A DNA stretch of 64,000 nt. Origin: Parvularcula sp. BBD 1991-13 (GTDB taxonomy: Bacteria; Pseudomonadota; Alphaproteobacteria; Caulobacterales; Parvularculaceae). Shown here piece by piece: positions 26,405-39,814 of this stretch (positions are counted from its first letter, which is position 1; each line of letters begins with the position of its first letter). The DNA lies in assembly GCA_001657385.1 (NCBI GenBank), contig LYSZ01000011.1, positions 1 through 64,000 on the forward strand, read 5' to 3'. The position numbers were made by a program, and so were the translations under genes. Below the pieces are notes generated by a model. The model was given only the letters and a program-made list of their open reading frames with translations, was not told the origin of the DNA and ran no database searches.

Positions 26405-27577
26405 TCAGGCGTCCTTTAGCAGGAGACGGGCCGCGGGCAGGGCGAGCGCGGCGAGAAACGCGCCCAGTAGCGGCAGGGTCGCATAGGACCCGGTCAGATC
26501 GAGCCAGAGGCCGCCGAGGGCGGCGCCGACGCCAATGCCGATGTTGAACGCGCCCTGGTTCATGATCGAAGCGACGCTTTCCAGCGGTCCCGCCATTTTC
26601 ATCACGAGCAACTGGCACACCGGCACGGCGGCGAAAGAAACCGCGCCCCATGCCAGGATGACCAGGCCTGTCCATATCGGTTGGGAAGCGGAGAAATAGA
26701 AAACGACGAGGATCGCCAGTTGGGCGATCAGCAGGCCGAGGATCGCCGTTTTGAGGTTTCCCTTGCCGATGAACCCGCTCGCCAGGCCGCCGATGGTGCT
26801 GCCGACGCCGGAAATGAGCAGGTAAACCGGGATCGCGCCGCCTGGCGCATTCGTCACCAGCGTCAGAATGAAGGCGAGATAAGTGAATACGGAGAATACG
26901 CATATGGACGAAATGACGCTGACCAGGAGCCCCTTTACGGCCGGGTTATTGATGATCGAGCATATTTCGCTGAACGTGCGGGCGGTCGCGTCCCGCCCGA
27001 CGGCGTTCGGCAGAAACAGAATGTTCAGCGCCAGCGCCGCGCCGCCAAGGCCCGCGACGAACACGAAAGCGGACCGCCAGCCCAGGGCCTGACCGATCGC
27101 CGTTCCGGCGGGAACGCCGATGACATTCGCTGCGGTGATGCAGGTGAACAACAAGGCCACCATTTGCGAGCGGCGCCGGGGCGGGGCGATGACGCCGATG
27201 ATGACCGCGGCGACGCCGAAATAGCCGGGATGGCTGACCGCCGTGACGATGCGTGCAATGAGCAGCGCTTCGAATGAGCCGGCCACGGCGCAGAAGACGT
27301 TGCCGGCGACGAAGAGAATCAGAAACGCGAACAGCATCCGTTTCAGTCCCCGCCCCGCCACGAGAACCGCGCTGAGCGGAGCGGCGGCGACGACGCCGAA
27401 GGCGTAGCCGGAGACCAGCAGTCCGGACCGGTCGTTTGCCGCGTTCAGGTCTTGCGCGATGTCGGCGAGCAGCCCGACGATCAGGAATTCCGTACAGCCG
27501 ATCGCGAAAGCGCCAACCAGGAGGCCGAGACCTTGCAGCCAGAATGCGGCGGACGGCGCTTTCGCGACTTCCGACAT
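26405..27577 (-). CDS. MFS exporter, AraJ/NepI (DHA1) type
   Basis: A 390-residue, 12-helix major facilitator. The first helix has the AraJ-family signature AIGCTEFLIVGLLADIA, and the loop between helices 2 and 3 carries GRGLKRM in place of the usual basic motif. The closest functional relatives include sugar exporters and purine-nucleoside/base efflux proteins (NepI, PbuE), so export of a small sugar-like or nucleoside product fits. It is the last gene of the twelve-gene operon, 19 bases after the degenerate SDR. Confidence 0.9.
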   Translation of the reverse strand: MSEVAKAPSAAFWLQGLGLLVGAFAIGCTEFLIVGLLADIAQDLNAANDRSGLLVSGYAFGVVAAAPLSAVLVAGRGLKRMLFAFLILFVAGNVFCAVAGSFEALLIARIVTAVSHPGYFGVAAVIIGVIAPPRRRSQMVALLFTCITAANVIGVPAGTAIGQALGWRSAFVFVAGLGGAALALNILFLPNAVGRDATARTFSEICSIINNPAVKGLLVSVISSICVFSVFTYLAFILTLVTNAPGGAIPVYLLISGVGSTIGGLASGFIGKGNLKTAILGLLIAQLAILVVFYFSASQPIWTGLVILAWGAVSFAAVPVCQLLVMKMAGPLESVASIMNQGAFNIGIGVGAALGGLWLDLTGSYATLPLLGAFLAALALPAARLLLKDA

Positions 27578-27596
27578 GGCTCAGCAATCCCGACGG

Positions 27597-28376
27597 TTAT
27601 ACAAGCGCTTCGCCTCCGTCGGCGGTTAAGACGGACCCGGTCATGAACGGGTTGACCATGGCCGAAATGATCAGGGAGGAAATCGACTGCGGCGCGCCGA
27701 TCGCCTTCGCCGGGATCTTTTCGGCGTGCCGCCTGAAAAACGCCGCGCGCTCGTTCTTTTCCATCTGCGTCCAGAGGGCGGTGTCGATGACGCCGGGCGC
27801 GACGATGTTGAACCGGACCGGCGCGTGCTCCACCGCCAGGGCTCTGAAAAGACCCTCGATGGCTTGCTGCGACGCCGTCAGCATGGATTTTCCCGCTACG
27901 GGGCGCAGACGCAGGCTTCCCGTCACGGCCGTCACGGAGCCGGTCGCGCCGATCCCGGGCAATGCAAGCTGCACCGCCTCGACGAGCGCCCAGAACAGTT
28001 TGTCCCAATCGGTTTTCAACGCCGACAGGTCATCGTCCGCGATCCTTCGGTGATCGGTTTTTGCGGCGACGCTCCAGCATAGATGATCGACAGGTCCGGT
28101 GAATTCAAAGAAACGCCGTAATGAAGCGGCGTCGGCGACATCGACAGATTGACCGTTTATGTTTTGGCCGATTTCCGATATCGCGCAATCAATTTTTTTT
28201 GCGGATCGCGCGCCGATGAAAACCCGGGCGCCCAGGCGCGCCGCCTGTTCCGCGACGCAGCGGCCAATGCCGCTGGAGCCGCCGAGCACCGCCACGCTGG
28301 CGCCGTGCAGCGAAAACGGATGATCGTCCGTCGGCGGCGATTTGCGCTCCCCGGCTGTCACCGGCCGTCGCGCCAT
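27597..28376 (-). CDS. SDR-fold protein with lost catalytic Tyr and Lys
   Basis: A 259-residue Rossmann protein. The nucleotide motif GGSSGIG (32-38) and the overall SDR order are kept, including the C-terminal NPFMTGSVLTADGG that closes the active site. However, the YxxxK catalytic pair is replaced: the segment SMLTASQQAIEG has Leu166 where Tyr should be and Gln170 in place of Lys. NNAG is also changed. Normal hydride-transfer chemistry is unlikely; it may be a structural partner or use a different mechanism. ATG 28376 overlaps the epimerase gene by 19 bases. Confidence 0.85.
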   Translation of the reverse strand: MARRPVTAGERKSPPTDDHPFSLHGASVAVLGGSSGIGRCVAEQAARLGARVFIGARSAKKIDCAISEIGQNINGQSVDVADAASLRRFFEFTGPVDHLCWSVAAKTDHRRIADDDLSALKTDWDKLFWALVEAVQLALPGIGATGSVTAVTGSLRLRPVAGKSMLTASQQAIEGLFRALAVEHAPVRFNIVAPGVIDTALWTQMEKNERAAFFRRHAEKIPAKAIGAPQSISSLIISAMVNPFMTGSVLTADGGEALV

Positions 28377-29200
28377 GAATGCTTCGGCTCGAAGCCGATG
28401 AGCTCGTTCGCCTGCCTGTTGGAAATGAAGGCGCCTGTCTCGGCAAGGCCGGGCGGCGGCGTGCGGCCGGGAAACCGCAAACGGAACAAGTCGGCGATAT
28501 CGCAGTCCATGACCGTGTCGGGCGCGGAGATGAACATGTTCGTCACGCCGGGCGGGCGCCGCTCGACCGCCAGCCGGCAGGCGCGCGCCACATCGCGCGC
28601 GTCGATATAGGACCACATGTGCCACCGGCGAATATCCGGGTCGTGATGATAGCGCGAATAGGCGGCGTAGTCCTTGGGGTCCTCGATCAGGGGCGCCCTC
28701 AGGCCGACGACGCAGCCGCCGCTTGTCGCGACATGGCCGGCAAGATACTCGGTGACCGCCTTGGACAAAGCATAGGCCGACGCCGGCTGGACGAGGGTTT
28801 CCCGGCCGAGGGGAACCGGAATGTCGGCGTCGTCGCCGAAAAACTGTTCCGCGACCGCGGCGCTCGACAGCCAGACCACGGTGTCGACGCCGAGGATGCC
28901 GGCGGCGCGGAAGACATTGTAGTTGATCGACACGTTCTCGATGAAGGTGTCGGTCGGCGGTCTCAATCCGGGCAACGCGACATTGGCGAGGTGCACGACG
29001 GCGCTTGCGCCTTCGAACGCCTCGATGGTTTCGCCCAGAGAGGTCAGGTCGGCGCGAACGCCCCTGATGTCGCCGGCGGCGCTGGACCTGATGTCTTCAT
29101 TCCGGTCGACGCCGTAAACCTCGTAACCGTGATTGCCGAATTCTTCGATGACGAACGGGCCGGTCTTTCCAGCGCTTCCTGTAACGACGATCTTGTCCAT
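28358..29200 (-). CDS. NAD-dependent epimerase/dehydratase (extended SDR)
   Basis: A 280-residue extended SDR. The NAD motif is TGSAGKTG (7-14), Ser is in VVWLSSAAV and YALSK supplies the catalytic Tyr and Lys, so it should be active. The C-terminal substrate domain (MWSYIDARDVARACRLAVE, then NMFISAPDTVMD) is typical of NAD-sugar epimerases and reductases. It probably oxidises or epimerises a sugar or cyclitol hydroxyl in this pathway. It follows the phosphatase by 22 bases. Confidence 0.9.
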   Translation of the reverse strand: MDKIVVTGSAGKTGPFVIEEFGNHGYEVYGVDRNEDIRSSAAGDIRGVRADLTSLGETIEAFEGASAVVHLANVALPGLRPPTDTFIENVSINYNVFRAAGILGVDTVVWLSSAAVAEQFFGDDADIPVPLGRETLVQPASAYALSKAVTEYLAGHVATSGGCVVGLRAPLIEDPKDYAAYSRYHHDPDIRRWHMWSYIDARDVARACRLAVERRPPGVTNMFISAPDTVMDCDIADLFRLRFPGRTPPPGLAETGAFISNRQANELIGFEPKHSWRDGR

Positions 29201-29222
29201 ATGTTTCCTCTTGTTTGTGCGT

Positions 29223-29858
29223 CTAGAAGTTAAGGACTTCCGTATCGAGATATTCCTGCGGGATGTGGGCGGTGTCGCCGAGCGTCGCCCCGGTCATGCG
29301 GTTGTTCTCGAAAGTAAAGGTTGTGATCGACCCGGTCGGGATGCCGGAAACTTCCCTGTACTGCTCCAGCGGCAAGGCCGTATAGAAACAATACAAAAGA
29401 CGGATGACGCCCTTGTGGGTGAACAGCAGGATATGGTCGTGCTTGCGGAAATACTCGCCCACGGCCTCGGCCGCCCGCTCCAGCGCGTTCTGCGCCGTTT
29501 CCCCGCCCGGCGGCGCATGCCGGGACGGGTCTTTAAGCCAACGCTCGTAAGCCTTGGTGTTTTTCAGGCTCGAAGGCGGCTGTCCCTCCCAGTCTCCGTA
29601 CGAGATTTCCCTGAGCCTGGCGTCGGTGACAACGGGCAGGCGCAAGCGACCGGAAACGGCCATGGCCGTTTGCAGGGCCCGTTTCAGGGGGCTTGAGACG
29701 ATGACGTCGGCGCTGTCTATGCCGGCGGCGTTCCCGACCGAGCGGGCGATTTCCATGCCTGCGGATGTCAGCGCCGGGTTCGACGAGCCGCAGTAAAGGC
29801 TGTCGCGGGTATAGGAGGTCGGGCCGTGGCGGACGATCGTCAGGGTTGTGAATGTCAT
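29223..29858 (-). CDS. Histidine phosphatase (phosphoglycerate-mutase fold)
   Basis: A 211-residue branch-1 histidine phosphatase. The phospho-accepting His11 lies in VRHGPTS, the second arginine in SSPLKRA, the acidic residue in LREISYGDWEG and the second His in FTHKGVIRLL. The usual THGG reads THKG here. The family hydrolyses phosphate monoesters; in this operon removal of phosphate from the product before export is likely (inferred). Confidence 0.92.
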   Translation of the reverse strand: MTFTTLTIVRHGPTSYTRDSLYCGSSNPALTSAGMEIARSVGNAAGIDSADVIVSSPLKRALQTAMAVSGRLRLPVVTDARLREISYGDWEGQPPSSLKNTKAYERWLKDPSRHAPPGGETAQNALERAAEAVGEYFRKHDHILLFTHKGVIRLLYCFYTALPLEQYREVSGIPTGSITTFTFENNRMTGATLGDTAHIPQEYLDTEVLNF

Positions 29859-29870
29859 CAGTTCACCAAT

Positions 29871-31367
29871 CTATCCGGGGGCGCACGGGTTTCGCTGGCC
29901 GCGCCAGTCGCCGGGAAACGCTTCCAGTATTTTTCGGCGGCAGTCGCTGTCGTCGTATACCTCGCCATAGACCCGCGTTCCGCCTTCCGTCGTGGACGCC
30001 CTGACCAGGAGCCACTGCCCGTCGGGATACTCCAGCCTCAATCCGTCCGTACGATCGGCCGCCGCCGATGTCGGGTCCATCCCGAGACGCCGCGCTGCGC
30101 CCGCCAGGAAAGCATCGTAGTCGGACGGCGCGAGGGGTTTCCTGACATGGTGCTCGATCCAGTTGAGCCGGTCGGTTCCGAAATGGCGCCGCAGCCGGTC
30201 CATTTGTATCGAGAGCGGTTCGCTTGACTGGCTGAAAACGGCCCCGAAAGCGGCGATGACGAGAAACGGGTCGCGGTCGCAACTGAAATCGCCGAGCGCC
30301 ATGTCGCCCACGCCGCCCGCGGCCACGGCGTGATCTTCGCTGAGCAGGTGATCGGCGATGTTCTTGAAGCCGATGGGCGTGTAGGTCATGGGCCGGTCGA
30401 GGGCGCGGGCGAGTTTTTTAAGCAGCGCGCCGGTGGCGACGGTGGCGAACAGCCTGCCCCGGACGTTTGCCGCCAGGTCCCCTGTCGCATGCCATATGAT
30501 GTAGGCGGCGAGTTCATGGGGGTGAACCAGCCGGCCGAGATCGTCGATGACGTAGATGCGGTCCCCGTCCCCGTCGAGAACGACGCCGAAGGACGCCTTG
30601 CGCCGCCTGACCGTGTCCATGGCGCGGATGCGTCTTTCGGGAACCGACGGGTCCGGACCGATTGTATGGAGATCGATCTGCCGGTCGTCGCCCACCGGCA
30701 GCGGGGTCCAGCCGAAACGCGCGCAAAGCGTCTGCATCGGCCCGCCGGCCACGCCGCCGAGGCCGTCCACGGCCACGGTCAGTCCCTGTTTTATGCAGTG
30801 TCCGAATTGCCGGCCGATGGCGTCGATCCTGTTTTCCATGATCGATTGCGACAGGGCCTTGTCGAAGGCGTCCGCCGGCGCGTCCGCGTGATGCCGAGAA
30901 GCGGCAAGATGAGGGCTGCCGGTTTTCAGGATTGCCTTCGCGCGCTCATGGACCGCGGCTTCGACGGCGCTGGCGGGCGGCCGTCCGGGGGGAACTTTCA
31001 GTTTCAGCCCGTTCCAGCTCCAGGGATTGTGGCTGGCCGTGACCAGGATCGCCAGGTCGAAACGCCCGACGCTGACGGCCGCGCTGGCGAAGGGCGTGGG
31101 AAGATTCGGCGCTACGCCTATTGTTTCGAGCGCCAGGGAGGACGCCGCCGCCTGAACGGCGCGGAGGAAGGCCGGGCTCGACGGGCGGTTGTCGCAACAC
31201 AGGAGCAGCCGTTTACGCCCGCCGGCGGCGGCGACCGTCTCCTCGCAGGCGGCGACCGCCAGGGCCGCGAGGGTTCGCTCGTCGATCGAGGCGCCGACGA
31301 CGCCGCGCCAGCCGTCCGCGGTGCGCGGAGGGAGCGCCTCTACCGGGTGTTGGTTCTGATCGTCCAT
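29871..31367 (-). CDS. Phosphohexomutase-family protein (PGM/PMM-like)
   Basis: A 498-residue alpha-D-phosphohexomutase. The phosphoserine loop TASHNPWSW puts Ser at 112, the magnesium loop DGDGDR is at 265-270, and the C-terminal phosphate-binding loop is RASTTEGGTRVYGEV. The sugar-binding loop, usually GGExSGH, is changed to AGGVGDMALGD, so the substrate is probably not glucose or mannose phosphate. A role in shifting phosphate between positions of a sugar or cyclitol is inferred. ATG 31367 is preferred to a TTG at 31403. Confidence 0.88.
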   Translation of the reverse strand: MDDQNQHPVEALPPRTADGWRGVVGASIDERTLAALAVAACEETVAAAGGRKRLLLCCDNRPSSPAFLRAVQAAASSLALETIGVAPNLPTPFASAAVSVGRFDLAILVTASHNPWSWNGLKLKVPPGRPPASAVEAAVHERAKAILKTGSPHLAASRHHADAPADAFDKALSQSIMENRIDAIGRQFGHCIKQGLTVAVDGLGGVAGGPMQTLCARFGWTPLPVGDDRQIDLHTIGPDPSVPERRIRAMDTVRRRKASFGVVLDGDGDRIYVIDDLGRLVHPHELAAYIIWHATGDLAANVRGRLFATVATGALLKKLARALDRPMTYTPIGFKNIADHLLSEDHAVAAGGVGDMALGDFSCDRDPFLVIAAFGAVFSQSSEPLSIQMDRLRRHFGTDRLNWIEHHVRKPLAPSDYDAFLAGAARRLGMDPTSAAADRTDGLRLEYPDGQWLLVRASTTEGGTRVYGEVYDDSDCRRKILEAFPGDWRGQRNPCAPG

Positions 31368-31412
31368 GGCGTTGATCCGGGCGTCACGACAAAAAGGGTG
31401 CAATAAACAACG

Positions 31413-32402
31413 TTAACGGAGGAAAACGGCGTCCATGTTCAGGAATTCGTCGATGTTTTTGAGGCGGGTGCGCGCGCCTTCGGTCTGAACTGCGAAGGCG
31501 CCGCTTCGATTGCCGACCACCAGGGCCGTTTCGACCGACAGGCCGGCCTGGAGCCCCAGGACGAAGCCCGCCATGAACGCGTCGCCGGCGCCGACACAGT
31601 CGACGACGGGCGCGCTGAACGCGGGCGCTTCGAACCAGTCGCCCTCATACCGCGCCGCCGATCCCGCCTCGCCTTTCGTCACGGCGAGGTTCAGCCCCCT
31701 GATCGATTCCGATTGCCGGCCGAGAATGTTGTTGATCATGTCGTGTTCGCCGGAGTTGACGATGAGCCAGTCGATATGGGGCAGGAGGGCGTTCAGCGTT
31801 TCCCGGTCCATGTTGACCGATGCGGGGGACCAGACCGTCATCGGACGATGCGCCTGAGCGGACCGGATGTCTGCTATGAACCGGTCAATGACATGCCGGC
31901 TGGGGTCGAAGACGATCAGCGCATCGGCGTTGACCGACGCAGCCTGGTCGAGGACGGCGCCGCGGTGGCCGTTATTCGCCCCCCTGTGGAGGAGCAGCCT
32001 GTGTTCCTTGCCGCAGACGGGAATGTAGACCGTTCCGGTATTTTCGCCTTCCATCCGCGCGATGAAATCCGTTTTTACACCCCTGTTTTCAAGATGCGAC
32101 ACGGCCATCCGTCCGTAGTCGTCCGTTCCAACGGCGCCGGACACGTAACAGGGCGTCTCCAGGCCGGCGAAGGCTTCGGCGCAATTGCCGGCATGTCCTC
32201 CCATCGCGATCCGCGCGCCGCTGACGGTGGCGGCGGTGTCCTGCGCCGGCCATTCGTCCAGGTAAAGCATGATGTCGACATTGATCGACCCCGCCACGAA
32301 AACGCGGACTTCCCGGCGGCGGCGGCGCAGCCGCTCCTTCTCGGCGTCGTCAAGCGGCCAGCCGCCGGGCGACGTCCGGGCGTGACGGGCGCGGCGGGTC
32401 AC
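31413..32402 (-). CDS. PfkB-family (ribokinase-like) carbohydrate kinase
   Basis: A 329-residue kinase. The N-terminal substrate motif is GSINVDIMLYLDEWP with GGHAGNCAEAFAGL, and the ATP/anion-hole signature is DCVGAGDAFMAGF with catalytic Asp274. The family phosphorylates sugars, nucleosides and inositol-type substrates. The first 32 residues are basic and probably disordered. It starts at ATG 32402, overlapping the Rid stop by ATGA. Confidence 0.92.
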   Translation of the reverse strand: MTRRARHARTSPGGWPLDDAEKERLRRRRREVRVFVAGSINVDIMLYLDEWPAQDTAATVSGARIAMGGHAGNCAEAFAGLETPCYVSGAVGTDDYGRMAVSHLENRGVKTDFIARMEGENTGTVYIPVCGKEHRLLLHRGANNGHRGAVLDQAASVNADALIVFDPSRHVIDRFIADIRSAQAHRPMTVWSPASVNMDRETLNALLPHIDWLIVNSGEHDMINNILGRQSESIRGLNLAVTKGEAGSAARYEGDWFEAPAFSAPVVDCVGAGDAFMAGFVLGLQAGLSVETALVVGNRSGAFAVQTEGARTRLKNIDEFLNMDAVFLR

Positions 32403-32809
32403 GACGGACGGTTTCCGATAACCGCGACGCCGTTGATTTCAACCATGCAGCCGTCTTCCATCAGCTTGGAGACGACCATCGTGCTCGCCGGGTTGACGTC
32501 CGACAGCCATCGGTTGCGGACATTCGATACGTCCCTGAAATAATGCTGCTGGGTGACGAATATGTTCAGACAGGTCAGATCGCTTATCCCGCCGCCCGCC
32601 TCGGCCAGGATGGCGTTCAGCCGCTGGAAGATGACTTCCGCCTGTCCCGCCGGGTCGTTGGGACACAGAACGCCGCCGTGGGTGTCCGTCGCCACCTGTC
32701 CGGTCAGGAACAGCAGCGTGTCGCCGGGCTCAAGCGACACCGCCACGCCCGGGGAATAGCAACCGATCGGTTTGGAATGACTTTTCGGTGTAATGTTTGT
32801 CCGTTTCAT
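32399..32809 (-). CDS. RidA/YjgF-family protein lacking the key Arg
   Basis: A 136-residue Rid protein with the family trimer fold signature LFLTGQVATD, AGGGISDLTCLNIFVT and VEINGVAV. In deaminating RidA the motif PARS contains the Arg that binds the imine carboxylate; here it reads NPASTMV, with Ser109 in its place. So enamine/imine deamination of amino-acid-derived intermediates is unlikely. Other Rid subfamilies without Arg occur in biosynthetic clusters, where they act on other substrates. It is ATGA-coupled on both sides. Confidence 0.88.
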   Translation of the reverse strand: MKRTNITPKSHSKPIGCYSPGVAVSLEPGDTLLFLTGQVATDTHGGVLCPNDPAGQAEVIFQRLNAILAEAGGGISDLTCLNIFVTQQHYFRDVSNVRNRWLSDVNPASTMVVSKLMEDGCMVEINGVAVIGNRPS

Positions 32810-33564
32810 GTCGAGCCGCCTTCATGTTTTTCCGGGTATGGACCATAAGAGCCTGTCAGCGCCGCAACCTGGATTTCGCGAAGTTCCACCATATCGTCCT
32901 GAGACAGAATGAACGAAACAAGCCTTGCAATGTGTTCCGGTTTCAGCGCTTGGGGTCTCGTTCCGGGGCTTGCCTTTTCGTAGCTTCCCTTGAACGACGT
33001 ATCGACGGCGCCGGGATAAAGCATCGAAACCTTGAGGCCCTTGCCGCGATACTCCTTGCGCAACACATCGAAGAGCGCGCGCATGCCTGTTTTTGACGCG
33101 GCGTAGGACGCCCGGCCGGTGAACGGATAAAGGCTGGCGTCGGAACCGACGCCGATGAGCGACTTTTTCCCGCCGAGCAGGAGATAGCCCAGGGTGGCGG
33201 AGACGCAGTTGAAGGCGCCGTCGAGGTTCGTCCGCAACTCGTCCCGCCAGTCTTCCAGGGCGATGTCTTCAAAACGTCGCCAGCGCCCGAAGCCCGCATT
33301 GACGATGACGGCGTCAATGGCGCTGCGTTCTTTCATCAGCGCGTTCAGGGCCGAATCAACCGCCTGTCTGTCGCCGACATCGACTTTCTGGACCACGTGC
33401 GGGATTCTCCGGCTTTGAAAATACCCGCTCAGGCTTTCAAGGTCGGCAGGGGTCCTCGACCAGCAGGCAAGCTCATAACCGTCGCGGGCGAGTTGCTCCG
33501 CGATCGCCCGGCCGATGCCTTTGCCGGCCCCGGTGACAAGTGCGAGCGGCGCATCCCCGGTCAT
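32806..33564 (-). CDS. Short-chain dehydrogenase/reductase
   Basis: A 252-residue classical SDR with an intact active site. TGAGKGIG binds the cofactor, followed by VNAGFG, Ser in GVGSDASLY and YAASK. The acceptor Arg in CWSRTP after beta-2 favours NADP(H). It belongs to the operon by ATGA overlaps with the DJ-1 and Rid genes and likely reduces or oxidises a ring or side-chain hydroxyl. Confidence 0.92.
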   Translation of the reverse strand: MTGDAPLALVTGAGKGIGRAIAEQLARDGYELACWSRTPADLESLSGYFQSRRIPHVVQKVDVGDRQAVDSALNALMKERSAIDAVIVNAGFGRWRRFEDIALEDWRDELRTNLDGAFNCVSATLGYLLLGGKKSLIGVGSDASLYPFTGRASYAASKTGMRALFDVLRKEYRGKGLKVSMLYPGAVDTSFKGSYEKASPGTRPQALKPEHIARLVSFILSQDDMVELREIQVAALTGSYGPYPEKHEGGST

Positions 33565-34178
33565 GGCGAAAACGCCATCGCCCCGGCCATGTCGACAAGG
33601 GCGCGGTCCGGACTGATTTCAGTGCGCTTGCTTACGGCGTCGAATTGCTCGGGAAAGAAGTCCCGGATCACCTGGAATGCAATGTCCACGGACTTTACCG
33701 ACGCCGACGGCGCCCCGCCGATCGACGTGAGCCAGTCATGGCGCACCAGGCCCTGCTGGATATTGGCGGCGTAATGGCCGGGAAACAGGCGCCTCTTGTT
33801 CGCGTGACACGAAAACCGGATATCGTTCAGCAGGCCGGTGTTCTTCAAAAGGAAGACACCGGAACACACCGTGTAAATCCTGGCGCCGAAAGCGACCTGC
33901 GCCTTGATAAAGTCGTCATAGGCGCCCGTGTCCGCAAGGTCGGTCGCGGCCCTGCCGCCGGGAATGATGACGGCGTCGTACGCGCCCTCGGGTTTTTCCA
34001 GGAGGGCGGGGTTGACTGCAAACCCCGCCGCCGTTTCCACGCTGTCGCTGTGGCTTATGCAGGACAGTGTATACGGAAGGCTTTGCCCGTGGCCGGCGTC
34101 GAGCTTGGAAAGGATTCCATGGACGCCGAAAAAGTCGAGTTCGTCGACGCCGGGAAAAGTAACAATGCCGATCCTCAT
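33561..34178 (-). CDS. DJ-1/PfpI-family protein (isonitrile-hydratase-like)
   Basis: A 205-residue glutamine-amidotransferase-like protein. It has the nucleophile elbow VCSGVFLL with Cys105 and the conserved acidic residue in the N-terminal PGVDELDFFGVHGIL helix. The IIPGGRAATD block and SIGGAPSASVKSVDIAF complete the subgroup that contains isonitrile hydratase and the N-domain of some AraC regulators. There is no DNA-binding domain. The reaction in this operon is unknown; hydrolysis or hydration of a C-N bond is possible. Confidence 0.85.
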   Translation of the reverse strand: MRIGIVTFPGVDELDFFGVHGILSKLDAGHGQSLPYTLSCISHSDSVETAAGFAVNPALLEKPEGAYDAVIIPGGRAATDLADTGAYDDFIKAQVAFGARIYTVCSGVFLLKNTGLLNDIRFSCHANKRRLFPGHYAANIQQGLVRHDWLTSIGGAPSASVKSVDIAFQVIRDFFPEQFDAVSKRTEISPDRALVDMAGAMAFSP

Positions 34179-34208
34179 GGACCGCCTCCGGGAGTGAAGG
34201 AATGGGTT

Positions 34209-35231
34209 CTAGCGAAGGTCGGCGAAGCTCGCGTCGATGTCCGCGTCGGCGTAGAGCGGGTGTCCGCCGGGGGGCGACTTCAACAGCCGGGCCGCGGCCG
34301 GAATAAATCCGTGCATGGCCTTTCGCCGCGCCGCCGCGCCGATGCGGATCAGGTCGATGATGACCCCGGCTGCGTTGCTGGAATCCTGCACTTTCAGTTT
34401 GAGATCGATCGAGATGGGCGTTCCGGCCCAGCCGCTGCCCTCGATATTGAGGTAGGCGACCTTGTTGTCGCGAAGATGCGGTATGAAGCCCGCGGAAGGG
34501 ATCACCTCGACATTCGAAACGTCAACGCCCTCCTGGGCGAGTGCGTTCATTTTCGATTGCTGCTTGGTTCCGCCGTGTTCTCTCAGGTTCATGAAATCGG
34601 CATTGCCGCCGAGATTGAGCTGATAGGAGCTGTCCAGCGTAATGCCCCGTTCATTCAGCAGGCCGAGGAGTTCCCGGTGAATGATCGACGTGCCGATATG
34701 ACTGGCGAGATCGTCGCCGATCAGCGGCGTTTCCTGCGCAACGAACTGTTGCATGATTTCATCGGAACGCGCGACGATCTCCGGCGTGCAGTTGACGAAA
34801 GCAACGCCGGCCCGGCAGGCGGCGAGGGCGTAAGCGGTTGCGGCCTCCTGAAGGCCGGTCGGCAGCGAATACAAAAGGACTTCCGCGCTGGAAGACTTCA
34901 GGATATCCGCGACCCTGTTGATCTCTCCCTCCTGGTCGCCACCGGGCGCGATCCCGGCGCTCACCTCCAAGGCGAACTCGCTCAAATCCTGTTGCAGGTC
35001 GGGATAGTTGTTTTTACCGGCGAAGATGGCGCGCTTCAGCGGCTGGCCGATCTTTTCCGCATCAATATCAAATGCCGCGACAACCTCCACGTGATGCGGG
35101 GTCATGCCGCCGATATCGGCCCGCTTGATGCCGACATTCCGGCCGTCGGTTTCATAAAATTTAATGCCTTGACACAGGGCGAGAATATTGTTGCCGACCC
35201 CGGCAACCGCCAGTTTAAGCTTGTTGGACAC
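34209..35231 (-). CDS. Inositol-3-phosphate synthase family protein (archaeal/actinobacterial type)
   Basis: A 340-residue NAD-dependent cyclase. The NAD motif AGVGNNILALCQGI (10-23), VVAAFDIDAEKIG, LNLGGNADFMNL (206-216), SKMNAL (226-231) and VQDSSNAAGVIIDLIR match short prokaryotic inositol-phosphate synthases, which cyclise glucose-6-phosphate. In aristeromycin biosynthesis the orthologue Ari2 makes a five-membered cyclitol phosphate from fructose-6-phosphate. The rest of this operon suggests a similarly specialised role. The GTG start at 35231 has a textbook AGGAGG nine bases upstream, suggesting high expression. Confidence 0.92.
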   Translation of the reverse strand: MSNKLKLAVAGVGNNILALCQGIKFYETDGRNVGIKRADIGGMTPHHVEVVAAFDIDAEKIGQPLKRAIFAGKNNYPDLQQDLSEFALEVSAGIAPGGDQEGEINRVADILKSSSAEVLLYSLPTGLQEAATAYALAACRAGVAFVNCTPEIVARSDEIMQQFVAQETPLIGDDLASHIGTSIIHRELLGLLNERGITLDSSYQLNLGGNADFMNLREHGGTKQQSKMNALAQEGVDVSNVEVIPSAGFIPHLRDNKVAYLNIEGSGWAGTPISIDLKLKVQDSSNAAGVIIDLIRIGAAARRKAMHGFIPAAARLLKSPPGGHPLYADADIDASFADLR

Positions 35232-35264
35232 GGTGAAATTCCTCCTAGATAATATAATCGAGGC

Positions 35265-36302
35265 TTATGAATTCCGGAAAAGCGATTTTGCCTCTTCGAT
35301 CAGTTTTTGAACTTTGTAAGCGTCTTCCAGAGTCGCATGCGCGGAAGGCTCGTCGATCGACGGGCCGCGCGCCGGTAAAATGAATTGATATGGATTAATT
35401 GAAACGTCAGTATAAAGATCCTTGACCGGACGACCTCCCTGAATATCTAGGGAAAACTTGGCCGCGGCGTTGTCGGGATTGATGTCGATCAGGATTTTCC
35501 GATTTTCTCCCGATATCGCGATGGTGATGGCGGGGTGGTTGTCCGAGGCCCTGTTGCAGCCGATCCGGGCCTTGAGGGGGCGCGCGGCTGTCTCCAGGTC
35601 GATGTCGCAACGGTCGTCCGACGTGCACGGCGCGTCGGCGCCTCGAATGTTGCGTGTTTCATGCACGATGCAAAAGGAGGCTGACGTCACCCGCCAGTCC
35701 AGCGGAAATAGAAAGCGCAGCAGGTCGAGCATGTGCGACCCGAGATCCGACAGCGCGCCCTCGCCGGGACCGCCCGTATGCCGCCAGGCCCAGTTGCTGT
35801 CGTTGTCGGTCAGGAAATTATGCTTGAATGAAATCGAGATGTCCGACCATTCCGCGGCGTCGCTGTCGCGGATCAGGGACCTCGCCCTGATCAATGCGGG
35901 ATGGAGCCGCCACTGGAAAGTGACGTGGACCTGCGCCTGGCGTTCCGTATACAGTTTGAACAGGTTTTCCGCCGATGCGGCGCTGTCGGTCAGCGGCTTT
36001 TCGCACATGACGGTGACGCCGGCCTTCATGGCTTCCGACAAAAAGGCTTCATGCGTCGCCGGCGGGGAGACGATGCTGACGACGTCGTACCGCCCGGTCC
36101 CGATTAGCGCCAGCGGCGCGTCAGTGACGTCGCAATGCTCATGCTCGCGCGCGAGTTCTTCCGCCGCTTTTTTGTTGGCGTGGTAGCCGACGGTCTTCAG
36201 GCGGAGACCGTCGGTTTCGCGTATCCAGTTCGCATGCTGACGGCCAAATCCGGCGCCAATCAGCAAGACCTCAAGGGGATCGGAACCAACCGCGTCATGC
36301 AT
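35265..36302 (-). CDS. Gfo/Idh/MocA-family oxidoreductase
   Basis: A 345-residue NAD(P)-dependent dehydrogenase. The Rossmann motif is IGAGFGRQHANWI, followed by VSPPATHEAF and CEKPLT with the family Lys. The second domain has GALSDLGSHMLDLLRF, where His is the usual catalytic or metal residue. The family acts on sugars and cyclitols such as inositol (IdhA), which agrees with the adjacent cyclase. ATG 36302 follows GGAGGC and overlaps the phosphorylase gene by eight bases. Confidence 0.92.
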   Translation of the reverse strand: MHDAVGSDPLEVLLIGAGFGRQHANWIRETDGLRLKTVGYHANKKAAEELAREHEHCDVTDAPLALIGTGRYDVVSIVSPPATHEAFLSEAMKAGVTVMCEKPLTDSAASAENLFKLYTERQAQVHVTFQWRLHPALIRARSLIRDSDAAEWSDISISFKHNFLTDNDSNWAWRHTGGPGEGALSDLGSHMLDLLRFLFPLDWRVTSASFCIVHETRNIRGADAPCTSDDRCDIDLETAARPLKARIGCNRASDNHPAITIAISGENRKILIDINPDNAAAKFSLDIQGGRPVKDLYTDVSINPYQFILPARGPSIDEPSAHATLEDAYKVQKLIEEAKSLFRNS

Positions 36303-37110
36303 GGGAAGCCTCCGCCATCATCACGTTTTCGGCGATCTGATCCATCATCACCGCCGCCGGACGCATGCCCTCCAGAACGAGTTCATGGTCCACCGGGGCG
36401 GCGCCTTCTGTTCCCTCCGCCCAGTTGCAGTTGGCGCATATAAGCGCGTACGGAATTTGCAGTTGCTGCGCGAGCGAGGCCTCGGCGCCCGCGGTCATGC
36501 CCACGACCCTGTTGCGGTAATCCGCATAAAGAAGCTTGTATGCCGAAATCTCCGCCGCCGTTTCGAAGCAGTCGCCGACCGACTGTATATAAAGACCGTG
36601 GTCAATGGTTTTCGCCGATGCGCGCGCCGCCGCGTCGATGAGAACAGCGCGTTCCCTCTTTCCGAACGGTTTGTGCATGGAAGGATGGACCTTTTTCGCC
36701 TGCTTGCCGAGGCTGTGGGGAAAGGATGAAAAGCCTCGCGCGATCTGGTCGGGGACGAGAAAAGTCAGCTCGCTGGCGAGGGGGACGGTGCGGTCGATGG
36801 CGCCGACCGAATTGAATGCGTAAATGGCGCTGACGCCCATGTGATGCATATGCAGCAGGTGCGCTTCATGGCCTTTCTGGATGATCAGTTCAGCCGGGCC
36901 GCGATCGGGCACGTCCCTTGTCGGCCCGTGGCGCGGGATGACCACAATTTCGAGATTGTTGAGCCTGCCGACTGTAAAATACAGTATGGGAACGACCTGA
37001 TCGCCGACCAGTATTTTCGTGTTTGCGTAGGATTTCGCGTCGTCAAGCGAATCGGTCAACCTGTCGGCCAGTCCGGTTCCGGCGATAATGCCTATTGCCC
37101 TGCTGGTCAC
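36295..37110 (-). CDS. Purine nucleoside/MTA phosphorylase-like protein
   Basis: A 271-residue member of the trimeric PNP/MTAP family. It contains the phosphate loop at IIAGTG, VIPRHGP with phosphate-binding Arg and His, FNSVGAI and SVGDCFETAAEI (usual GPRFETPAEI, so the GPR is lost). The base-site segment is GMTAGAEASLAQQL, then NWAEG. Phosphorylases split or form the bond between a purine and a ribose-type 1-phosphate. The changed phosphate or sugar loop hints at an unusual sugar partner. It is the first gene of the operon, with ATG 37110 behind GGGAGGA. Confidence 0.85.
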   Translation of the reverse strand: MTSRAIGIIAGTGLADRLTDSLDDAKSYANTKILVGDQVVPILYFTVGRLNNLEIVVIPRHGPTRDVPDRGPAELIIQKGHEAHLLHMHHMGVSAIYAFNSVGAIDRTVPLASELTFLVPDQIARGFSSFPHSLGKQAKKVHPSMHKPFGKRERAVLIDAAARASAKTIDHGLYIQSVGDCFETAAEISAYKLLYADYRNRVVGMTAGAEASLAQQLQIPYALICANCNWAEGTEGAAPVDHELVLEGMRPAAVMMDQIAENVMMAEASHA

Positions 37111-37467: not shown

Positions 37468-37944
37468 TTACGGTGATTTTTTTTCGAGCGCGCCGTCGCG
37501 CACATGGTCGTTGAGGCGCCTGAGAAGGTCGCTTAGGACGGACCAGTCCTCATCGGTCAGGCACGCGCGAAGGCGCTTTTCAACGCCGCGAACCTCGCCC
37601 GCCATCGCTGCGTATCGGCGCATGCCTTTCGCCGTCAGATAAAGGTGGCCGACGCGACCGTCCTCCTGGGAGGCTTTGCGGCTTAACAGCTTCATGTCGA
37701 TCAGGCTTTTCACCGCGCGGCTGACAATGCCCTTGTCCATGGGCGTGACGGCGACGACATCGTTGGCCGTGCGCCCCGGCGCTTCGCCGACCGCGGCGAG
37801 CACTCTCCAGTGGGAGAGGTTGAGGCCGTCATGGTCCCTGGCGATGGCCGCGGTGCGCCGGGCGATCCGGTCGGCGAGCAGGGAAATCTGATAGGGCGGA
37901 AAGGTTTCCAGCCGAATGACGTCGATTTCCGGTTTGACATTCAT
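37468..37944 (-). CDS. MarR-family transcriptional regulator
   Basis: A 158-residue winged-helix repressor. The recognition region is NDVVAVTPMDKGIVSRAVKSL, followed by the wing SRKASQEDGRVGHLYLTAKG and dimerisation helices at both ends. ATG 37944 is preferred to the longer frame. It is divergent from the 4-hydroxyphenylpyruvate dioxygenase gene with palindromes between them, so it probably controls tyrosine degradation, perhaps by sensing an aromatic acid. It could also act on the operon at 37110 downstream of it. Confidence 0.92.
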   Translation of the reverse strand: MNVKPEIDVIRLETFPPYQISLLADRIARRTAAIARDHDGLNLSHWRVLAAVGEAPGRTANDVVAVTPMDKGIVSRAVKSLIDMKLLSRKASQEDGRVGHLYLTAKGMRRYAAMAGEVRGVEKRLRACLTDEDWSVLSDLLRRLNDHVRDGALEKKSP

Positions 37945-37960
37945 GATCCACGCCCATAAA

Positions 37961-37981
37961 GTTGTAATTGCAACAAGTTGC
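37961..37981. promoter_or_regulatory. Overlapping inverted repeats, likely MarR operator
   Basis: Two overlapping inverted repeats lie in the gap between the divergent MarR and HPPD genes. GTTG-TAATTG-CAAC (37961-37974) and GCAAC-AA-GTTGC (37970-37981) share the half-site CAAC. They are 17 bases upstream of the marR start codon, a position suited to autorepression. Confidence 0.5.
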
Positions 37982-38177
37982 GTTAAAGACAAGATTGGCG
38001 CGAACCGCGCCGCCGATCAAGTCCCGGTCCGGACTCTGGTCGAACCTCCGGCCCCGCTAGCGGGCGACGCGGTTGGGGGGCTGCTGCGGCGGCGAGATGA
38101 AAAGACGCGCTGATAAAGACGCAGCGAAACAGACGGCAAAAGACACGACGCAGCGCGGCAGCGCAAAGGAGGCGAGG

Positions 38178-39266
38178 ATGGCTGACTTGTTTGACAACCC
38201 GATGGGACTGGACGGCTTCGAGTTCGTGGAGTTCGCCGCGCCGGAACGCGGCATGCTGGAAAGCGTGTTTGAGAAAATCGGATTCGCCCATGTCGCCCGC
38301 CATCGCTCCAAGGATGTCGATCTGTGGCGCCAGGGGGACGTCAATTTCATCATCAATTACGAGCCCAAGTCACATGCTTTCTATTATGCGCAGGAGCACG
38401 GACCGTCCGCCTGCGGCATGGCGTTTCGCGTGCGCGACGCCAAAAAGGCCTACGCCATGGCGATCGAGAACGGCGCGCAGCCGATGGAGACGCCGACCGG
38501 CCCGATGGAGCTGCGCCTGCCCGCGATCAAAGGCATTGGCGGCGCCCTGTTGTACCTCATCGACCGTTATGAAGAAGGCGCGTCGATCTACGACATCGAT
38601 TTTGAGTATCTGGAAGGCGTCGACCGCCATCCGGAGGGGTGCGGTTTCAAGGTAATCGACCACCTCACGCACAATGTGTACCGCGGCCGGATGGATTACT
38701 GGGCCGACTATTACGAGCGTCTCTTCAACTTCCGCGAAATCCGGTATTTCGATATCAAGGGCGAGTACACCGGGCTGTTGTCCCGCGCGATGACGGCGCC
38801 TGACGGAAAGATCCGCATCCCCCTTAACGAGGAGGGCGCCGGCGGCAAGGGCCAGATCGAGGAATTCCTGATGCAGTATAACGGCGAGGGCATTCAGCAC
38901 ATCGCCTTTTCCTGCGACGACCTCATCGCCTGCTGGGACCGGCTGAAGGAGCGCGGCGTTCCTTTCATGACGGCGCCGCCGGACACCTATTACGCGATGC
39001 TCGAAGAACGCCTGCCGGGCCATGGCGAGCCTGTCGCGGAGCTGCAACAGCGCGGCATTCTCCTGGACGGTTCGACGGAAGACGGCGATCCGCGGCTGTT
39101 GCTGCAGATTTTTTCCGAAACCCTGGTGGGGCCGATCTTTTTCGAGTTTATCCAGCGCAAGAAAGACGACGGCTTCGGCGAGGGCAACTTCAAGGCGCTG
39201 TTCGAATCGATCGAACGCGATCAGCTCGCCCGCGGCGTTTTCAGCGAAGACGCGGCGAAAGCGTAA
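38178..39266 (+). CDS. hppD: 4-hydroxyphenylpyruvate dioxygenase
   Basis: A 362-residue Fe(II) dioxygenase that turns 4-hydroxyphenylpyruvate into homogentisate in tyrosine breakdown. The metal ligands are His162 (IDHLTH), His241 (GIQHIAF) and Glu323 (FFEFIQRK), within one residue of the positions in the Pseudomonas enzyme. Two VOC domains cover the protein. ATG 38178 follows AAGGAGGCGAGG; the frame extends upstream but has no family support there. It is followed by a VOC gene in the same operon; homogentisate dioxygenase is not in the window. Confidence 0.97.
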
Positions 39267-39280
39267 GGGAGGCCGGGCCG

Positions 39281-39814
39281 ATGACGGTCAAGATAAAGCG
39301 CATCCACCACGTCGCCTATCGCTGCAAGGACGCCAAGGAGACGGTCGAGTTCTACCAGCGCGTTCTCAACATGGATTTTCAGCTTGCGATCGCTGAAAAC
39401 GAAGTGCCGTCGACGAAAGACCCCGATCCTTACATGCATGTCTTTCTCGACGCCGGCATGGGCAACGTGCTGGCGTTCTTCGAATTGCCGACGCGCGAGC
39501 CCATGGATCGCGACCGCAACACGCCGGAATGGGTTCAGCACATCGCCTTTGAGGTGGAGGATGTCGACGCGCTGACGGCGGCCAAGCAACGGGTGGAGGC
39601 CGAGGGGCTCGACGTTGTCGGGCCGACCAATCACGGCATCTTCAAGTCGATCTATTTTTTCGATCCGAACGGCCACCGCATCGAACTCGCTGCCAATACG
39701 GGCGCCCCGGAACAGTTAGAACGGCTTCGCGAAGCGGCTCCGGCCATGCTCGAAGAGTGGTCGCGCACAAGGCGCGCGCCGCGCCATGCGGCGTGGCTGC
39801 ACGAGGACGCCTGA
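39281..39814 (+). CDS. VOC-family (glyoxalase/dioxygenase fold) protein
   Basis: A 177-residue single-chain protein with two VOC beta-alpha repeats: IHHVAYRCKDAKETVEFYQ, and EWVQHIAFEVEDVDALTAAKQ with FFDPNGHRIELA. Probable metal ligands are His in IHHVAY, Glu in FFELP, His in QHIAF and Glu in RIELA. It lies 14 bases after hppD, so it likely acts in the same aromatic pathway, for example as a maleylpyruvate- or glyoxalase-type enzyme. The exact substrate is unknown. Confidence 0.85.
   Translation: MTVKIKRIHHVAYRCKDAKETVEFYQRVLNMDFQLAIAENEVPSTKDPDPYMHVFLDAGMGNVLAFFELPTREPMDRDRNTPEWVQHIAFEVEDVDALTAAKQRVEAEGLDVVGPTNHGIFKSIYFFDPNGHRIELAANTGAPEQLERLREAAPAMLEEWSRTRRAPRHAAWLHEDA

Follow-up and report, generated by a model that had tools for sequence, protein, structure and literature searches.

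Twelve genes, all co-directional on the minus strand, occupy positions 26405-37110 of the 64,000-nucleotide stretch of Parvularcula sp. BBD 1991-13 DNA analysed here (the window), and include a cyclitol-phosphate synthase and a relative of the purine nucleoside phosphorylases. A preliminary description of this operon had assigned a family to each gene; all twelve open reading frames are present, and Pfam agrees with every assignment. Judged from its sequence, the operon is a cluster of the aristeromycin/neplanocin type and not an unprecedented pathway, and it probably makes an uncharacterised relative of aristeromycin. From first gene to last, its members are:

36295-37110, minus strand: phosphorylase of the MTAP/PNP superfamily, proposed to attach the base (PF01048, 66.8 bits)
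35265-36302, minus strand: Gfo/Idh/MocA dehydrogenase (Pfam; EKP motif present)
34209-35231, minus strand: Ari2-type five-membered-cyclitol-phosphate synthase (Pfam Inos-1-P_synth; match to 6K96, trees and diagnostic columns)
33561-34178, minus strand: DJ-1/PfpI protein (Pfam; Cys within VCSG)
32806-33564, minus strand: SDR1 dehydrogenase (Pfam; YxxxK present)
32399-32809, minus strand: Rid-family protein (Pfam; Ser at the presumed position of the RidA active-site Arg)
31413-32402, minus strand: PfkB kinase (Pfam; GAGD motif)
29871-31403, minus strand: phosphohexomutase-family (PGM/PMM) protein, proposed 5′-to-1′ phosphate mutase (Pfam; TASHNP and DGDGDR present)
29223-29858, minus strand: histidine phosphatase (Pfam; RHG motif)
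28358-29200, minus strand: NAD-dependent epimerase/dehydratase-like protein (Pfam; YALSK present)
27597-28376, minus strand: SDR2, outside the conserved core (Pfam SDR)
26405-27577, minus strand: MFS transporter, Cmx/AraJ/NepI-like (all matches below cut-off), likely to serve product efflux

The tight packing noted earlier is borne out, although the spacing, given then as at most 45 bases, actually ranges from -19 to +33 bases (from first gene to last: -8, 33, 30, -4, -4, -4, 9, 12, 22, -19 and 19). SDR2 had been called degenerate, and its YxxxK dyad is indeed absent from the usual place, but its start is most likely at 28376 rather than 28625. Five of the proteins lie far below the NCBIfam equivalog cut-offs and therefore resemble specialised paralogues: the phosphorylase (best score to the MTAP model, 109.7 against a cut-off of 274.85 bits), the synthase (its only match the bacterial mycothiol INO1 model, 194.3 against 638), the PfkB kinase (ribose-1-phosphate kinase, 127.7 against 330), the mutase (archaeal GlmM, 173.4 against 439) and the phosphatase (CobC, 127.3 against 162.9). 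A promoter and terminator scan gave seven promoter-like sites where 2.6 were expected, one of which lies on the minus strand upstream of the first operon gene (37275-37248, 9/12 matches).

For the synthase, the best match among all PDB sequences is 6K96, entered as 'Five-membered-cyclitol-phosphate synthase' (414.9 bits, 61% identity), which we take, from the entry name and the reported Kudo 2019 structure, to be Ari2. INO1 of M. tuberculosis (1gr0) scores 184.8 bits and archaeal Ino1 (1u1i) 26.5 bits, and the earlier label 'archaeal-type' has accordingly been dropped. In a tree of 59 rows (the window, 6K96, 1gr0, 18 further Ari2-like loci, 34 INO1 loci and four Heimdall rows), the 20 Ari2-like rows that include the window and 6K96 form one side of a branch with support 100/100, and a tree constraining the window synthase among the 34 bacterial INO1 rows is rejected by the approximately unbiased (AU) test (p-AU 2e-63). 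At all 16 diagnostic columns, which separate 19 Ari2-like rows from the 34 bacterial INO1 rows at ≥90%, the window has the Ari2 residue. Neither the tree nor the control counts below include the partial INO1 matches (L005-L009, L039, L080 and L081, in our numbering of loci); L033 and the four Heimdall rows stand outside the 34-row INO1 set of the AU and diagnostic tests, with L033 kept in the neighbourhood control. On this evidence the synthase is of the Ari2 type and groups with Ari2 rather than INO1, as the preliminary description had supposed in naming Ari2 as the precedent; INO1 membership was rejected on both the NCBIfam score and the AU test.

The genes around the synthase are conserved with it. 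A pattern-based scan of a genome collection covering 84,980 species, whose patterns make the result a lower bound, found at least 19 loci, comprising 17 with an Ari2-like gene (51-62% identical) and two with Heimdall INO1-family genes (33-36%); a plasmid search added a locus on pRL1 of Rhizobium leguminosarum (L010, 50%), and L050 was excluded as a duplicate of L040 (contigs of equal length, 163932, and identical tblastn scores). Within the stretches of about 10 kb examined, the 18 Ari2-like loci other than the window hold matches to SDR1 (18), PfkB (17), DJ-1 (16), Rid (16) and Gfo (14). A few of these are open to doubt: the PfkB match of L040 and the DJ-1 match of L045 each stand some 10 kb away from the synthase, the Gfo match of L042 is on the opposite strand, and the SDR match of L056 is weak (42 bits). 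Gfo lies directly upstream of the synthase, on its strand, in 13 of its 14 loci. The one-strand order Gfo-Ari2-DJ1-SDR-Rid-PfkB is kept in 12 of the 18 (L010, with two genes inserted, L041, L043, L044, L046, L047, L048, L049, L051, L052, L055 and L057), whose carriers span Actinomycetota, Alphaproteobacteria and a member of the Chromobacteriaceae; the neighbours are thus conserved together across phyla, the outcome that a gene-neighbourhood search proposed earlier had been meant to look for.

Catalytic features of the core are likewise retained, with the DJ-1 Cys kept in 17 of 17 rows (16 loci and the window) and the SDR1 Tyr and Lys in 19 of 19. All 17 Rid proteins (16 loci and the window) share a P-x-S motif, which puts Ser at the position of the RidA active-site Arg, so that ordinary imine deaminase activity is unlikely. 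Mutase and phosphatase matches occur in the same 10 of the 18 loci, and phosphorylase-family genes in exactly these 10 (Fisher p 2.3e-5, only indicative, as the value is uncorrected for kinship among the loci and these are truncated at about 10 kb). For the window's epimerase, SDR2 and MFS proteins, the 18 loci gave weak homologues or none: the epimerase-like protein has only weak matches in three (16-23 bits) and one of 45.8 bits, by tblastn, in L044. Viral contigs scanned with the Ari2 alignment gave 49 pattern matches and no relative. The two Heimdallarchaeota loci (L058 and L059), both from metagenome-assembled genomes (MAGs), each hold a tandem pair of neighbouring INO1-family genes that are strongly divergent.

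These comparisons bear directly on ordinary inositol metabolism, in which a myo-inositol-phosphate synthase would merely sit beside unrelated genes. Pfam does name the protein so, and it is the sole Inos-1-P_synth match in the host genome. As a control, the 1.5-kb flanks of 34 INO1 genes were compared with flanks of similar length around the 18 Ari2-like genes, and the neighbours are kept with the latter and not with INO1: Gfo in 13/18 against 0/34, DJ-1 in 14/18 against 0/34, SDR1 in 15/18 against 2/34, Rid in 5/18 against 0/34 and PfkB in 2/18 against 0/34. Together with the Ari2-type columns and the rejected nesting in bacterial INO1, this makes an inositol pathway highly improbable.

What the operon attaches to the ring would depend on the phosphorylase. 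At the positions of human MTAP (hMTAP) residues 178, 220 and 222, described as active-site residues of which 220 and 222 contact the purine (PMC5738077), the window enzyme has Glu/Asn/Ala, as do its counterparts in L047 and L051 and Pseudomonas aeruginosa MTIP, an enzyme reported to release hypoxanthine (PMC6302742). The mutase-adjoining phosphorylases of L041, L043, L044, L046, L048, L049 and L052 have Ser/Asp/Asp, and that of L057 has a broken frame and is unreadable at 220/222. Replacing the equivalent Asn of a Kluyveromyces PNP by Asp is reported to have shifted that 6-oxopurine enzyme towards adenosine (PMC5074518). The structural model of the window enzyme (mean predicted local distance difference test score, pLDDT, 76.9; predicted template modelling score, pTM, 0.82) is poor at residues 63-78, 130-141 and 235-237, and the block 231-240 beside the base site averages a pLDDT of 53; its best Foldseek E-value is to 3ozb, MTIP with hypoxanthine. 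We therefore predict, from these residues, a phosphorylase of the 6-oxopurine type, and the operon appears set up to attach a purine base different from that of aristeromycin. An MTAP identity was rejected on the NCBIfam score and a base site that is not Ser/Asp/Asp. A housekeeping MTAP was also rejected, since an ordinary MTAP is encoded at another place in the host genome (L092), which makes the operon copy unlikely to be a salvage enzyme; two further PNP-family genes also lie elsewhere in the genome. Second MTAP-like copies with a Gln/Asp/Gly base site occur upstream and on the opposite strand in L043 (2607-4142) and L046 (7284-8123). Ari9 is described as the adenosine phosphorylase of the aristeromycin pathway (PMC8599513). 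MacI and MacT of aristeromycin biosynthesis are likewise reported to be adenosine phosphorylases, with a proposed irreversible reaction in the assembly of neplanocin A and aristeromycin (PMC8694150); the second copies in L043 and L046 might act as the other phosphorylase in a pair resembling MacI/MacT.

Taking synthase, cassette and base site together, we think it likely that the operon was acquired and directs the biosynthesis of a carbocyclic purine nucleoside of the aristeromycin or neplanocin kind. Several observations weigh against this. Eight of the 18 Ari2-like loci have no mutase, phosphatase or phosphorylase in the stretch examined, so the core alone does not imply a nucleoside, and the window synthase branches beside two Streptomyces loci that lack mutase and phosphorylase (support 99/83). 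Holding the window with all 39 INO1-side rows, at the base of the Ari2 group, is not rejected (p-AU 0.436), so that it may branch either within that group or at its base. In the 1.5-kb control, mutase, phosphatase and phosphorylase are found beside none of the 18 Ari2-like genes, so that the control supports the inner core only, and it is reversed for phosphatases (0/18 against 7/34) and epimerases (0/18 against 1/34). The window phosphorylase is only 25% identical to that of L041 and may have been recruited separately or do something else, and MacI and MacT have also been proposed to generate adenine (PMC8694150). SAHH-like genes, which follow the phosphorylase in six of the 10 mutase-bearing loci (L041, L043, L044, L046, L048 and L057), are missing from the window. 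They are also missing after the phosphorylase, in the stretch examined, from L047, L049, L051 and L052, and because L049 and L052 nevertheless have Ser/Asp/Asp, this absence is by itself no mark of the 6-oxopurine type.

Some of these points would suit an Ari2-type cyclopentitol pathway with a non-nucleoside end product, in which the phosphorylase supplies or salvages purine or ribose 1-phosphate, or serves self-protection. It could draw on the eight loci just mentioned, among which L010 and L054 have phosphoribosyl pyrophosphate (PRPP)-synthetase-like and TrpD-like genes and L055 a B12 radical SAM protein and a carbamoyltransferase, with relatives of both in L045 and L053, and on the PNP of nucleocidin biosynthesis, described as releasing adenine from methylthioadenosine (MTA) and adenosine (PMC8694150). 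We consider it unlikely, as mutase, phosphatase and phosphorylase join the core in the same 10 loci and the host has its MTAP and two other PNP-family genes elsewhere.

An adenine-based cluster for aristeromycin or neplanocin A proper, with a phosphorylase that accepts adenine despite its residues, would agree with the core genes and order shared with Micromonospora haikouensis, and the model's TM-scores indeed reach 0.76 with MTAP entries but only 0.68-0.69 with MTIP entries, a further point against a 6-oxopurine product. Foldseek E-value and TM-score thus disagree, so the fold alone is undecided on specificity and the residues carry the prediction. Given the Glu/Asn/Ala base site, the best E-value to MTIP with hypoxanthine and the lack of an SAHH-like or second SAHH gene (none among the twelve operon genes, and a single SAHH in the whole genome, on another contig), we rate adenine attachment as rather improbable.

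For the favoured carbocyclic-nucleoside operon we infer both the product and every chemical step. The Ari2 homologue would first use NAD+ to cyclise fructose 6-phosphate, giving a five-membered cyclitol phosphate, just as Ari2 is reported to make a phosphorylated cyclopentane from fructose 6-phosphate and NAD+ (PMC11188666). By analogy with the myo-inositol-phosphate synthase mechanism and from the reported Ari2 chemistry, the ring phosphate would stay on the former C6 while the former C2 bears a tertiary hydroxyl, and a neplanocin-like cyclopentenol would require the loss of both. The Gfo/Idh protein, SDR1, DJ-1 and Rid could accomplish this by oxidation, elimination of phosphate and tertiary hydroxyl, and re-reduction to a cyclopentenol 'sugar', in the order of 2′ oxidation, phosphate β-elimination, tautomerisation to a diketone, tertiary-hydroxyl elimination and two ketone reductions; such a sequence would need two dehydrogenases (Gfo and SDR1) and one or two lyase or tautomerase proteins (DJ-1 and Rid). 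The PfkB kinase would then phosphorylate the hydroxymethyl (5′) group, the mutase would shift the phosphate from 5′ to 1′ as phosphopentomutase does, and the PNP-like enzyme, working in the synthetic direction, would place a 6-oxopurine on C1′. Were the ring still unsaturated at this point, C1′ would be allylic, and this would stabilise the transition state in place of the absent ring oxygen. Finally, the histidine phosphatase may strip the leftover phosphate, the epimerase-like protein and SDR2 may tailor the product, and the MFS transporter may export it. In essence, PfkB, mutase and phosphorylase would mirror the natural ribokinase-phosphopentomutase-PNP route run in the synthetic direction, and we predict as the product a carbocyclic 6-oxopurine nucleoside, inosine- or guanosine-like.

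A bolder, tentative proposal is that carbocyclic nucleosides have a second line, where inosine- or guanosine-type compounds are built directly from cyclopentenyl 1-phosphate by a phosphopentomutase-like enzyme and a 6-oxopurine phosphorylase, the ring alkene replacing the ring oxygen, and, more broadly, that the core cassette is a general cyclopentitol supplier for exchangeable attachment modules. If true, the modules would be mutase plus phosphorylase, PRPP-synthetase-like plus TrpD-like proteins, or B12 radical SAM protein plus carbamoyltransferase, and a shared cassette with such modules would suggest that Rhizobium, Sphingomonas, Paludibacterium and others make several cyclopentitol products yet to be characterised.

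Other versions of the cassette can be described in their own right. In L010 (18981-28135, R. leguminosarum pRL1) and L054 (234-7923, an Acidobacteriaceae MAG), the place of mutase and phosphorylase beside the Ari2-type core is taken by genes for a PRPP-synthetase-like protein, a TrpD-like transferase and an aminotransferase of class V, an apparent PRPP-style variant. After its Ari2-type core, L055 (13415-20292) encodes a B12-binding radical SAM protein, then a carbamoyltransferase and several proteins that match no Pfam family, and it also carries an inositol-monophosphatase-family gene; relatives of the L055 type occur in L045 and L053. L040 (8681-17430, an alphaproteobacterial MAG) has Ari2-like, DJ-1 and SDR genes beside a putative FGGY-like kinase and a carbamoyltransferase-like gene, with no Gfo, Rid or mutase match in the stretch examined.

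The host context bears on how the operon arrived. Among 385 sampled genomes of the host's class, 31, counting its own, pass E 1e-30; apart from the window, a single one has an Ari2-like gene (59%), the next best match standing at 45%. In its own order, 12 of 398 sampled genomes (its own included) pass E 1e-40, the other 11 with INO1-like proteins of 37-40% identity, so that an Ari2-like gene was not found in the 397 other genomes sampled; nor was one found in any of 27 congeners, three of which have an INO1-family match (38-40% over its longest piece). Adjoining the operon is a MarR regulator (37468-37992, minus strand), followed at 38073-39811 by HPPD and a glyoxalase-fold gene. The MarR-HPPD-glyoxalase block stands together in three congeners (L082, L083 and L084), where HPPD is 75-82% identical and MarR adjoins it (only 54-57% in the other congeners listed), and where the 18-20 kb examined hold no match to any of the twelve operon proteins. 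MarR was rejected as the operon's regulator because it adjoins HPPD in these congeners, and it is probably not an operon member. The occurrence of the neighbouring block without the operon, combined with the absence of an Ari2-like gene from the 397 other genomes sampled in the order, suggests acquisition; gain by transfer fits best, loss elsewhere less well. GC content (0.626 for the operon, 0.643 for the window) is not telling.

Against published clusters, the operon stands out by its host. The clusters behind the proposed aristeromycin and coformycin pathways are described from M. haikouensis (L041, DSM 45626) and Streptomyces citricolor (PMC8706298), and a genome-mining preprint reports a family of aristeromycin clusters with 10 members from six genera, of which the four named are all actinomycetes (PMC11888242). 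The carriers named in this cited literature are thus actinomycetes, while the window is from an alphaproteobacterium. A sponge-microbiome study mentions the aristeromycin cluster only among low-similarity matches of its metagenomic clusters (PMC12795557). In the open literature, subscription papers not being covered, we found no proteobacterium reported to carry such a cluster, and no paper joining aristeromycin and Sphingomonas or carbocyclic nucleosides and alphaproteobacteria. A version from an alphaproteobacterium, with its compact core of nine genes and without SAHH-like genes, would help to show which genes suffice for making and attaching the cyclopentane 'sugar', and could give 6-oxopurine carbocyclic nucleosides.

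Three loci invite direct comparison. In Sphingomonas sanguinis SB4 (L047) the order PNP-Gfo-Ari2-DJ1-SDR1-Rid-PfkB-mutase-phosphatase is that of the window, with the synthase 62% and the PNP 49% identical; unlike the window, it has PNP and Gfo separated by a HAD hydrolase gene, an MFS gene of the Bcr/CflA-like type on the opposite strand, and no epimerase or SDR2 match at E 1e-4. Spongiactinospora sp. TRM90649 (L051) has the first nine genes in identical order, PNP first, but its PNP is a canonical 6-oxopurine PNP (300 bits, cut-off 218) from another branch of the superfamily, and GMC oxidoreductase-like and ABC ATPase genes lie downstream. P. aeruginosa MTIP (3ozb) shares the base-site residues of the window phosphorylase at 23-25% identity in structural alignments. 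The aristeromycin-type core together with mutase, phosphorylase and phosphatase is fully present in the window, and M. haikouensis L041 has Gfo-Ari2-DJ1-SDR-Rid-PfkB in the same order and on one strand, with mutase, phosphorylase and histidine phosphatase further on. L041 differs in that an SAHH gene (571.5 bits, above cut-off) separates PfkB from mutase, and in that its phosphorylase, MTAP-like with Ser/Asp/Asp, is followed by two SAHH-like genes and then the phosphatase; companion coformycin genes are absent from the twelve operon genes, the rest of the genome not having been searched for them. The window, for its part, places the phosphorylase first, with Glu/Asn/Ala, and has epimerase-like, SDR2 and MFS genes of its own and no SAHH-like gene. 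The preliminary description had thought the pathway undescribed; its kind is already known, eight of the genes and a phosphorylase being found in L041, and what sets the Parvularcula operon apart is the base site of its phosphorylase and the absence of SAHH-like genes.

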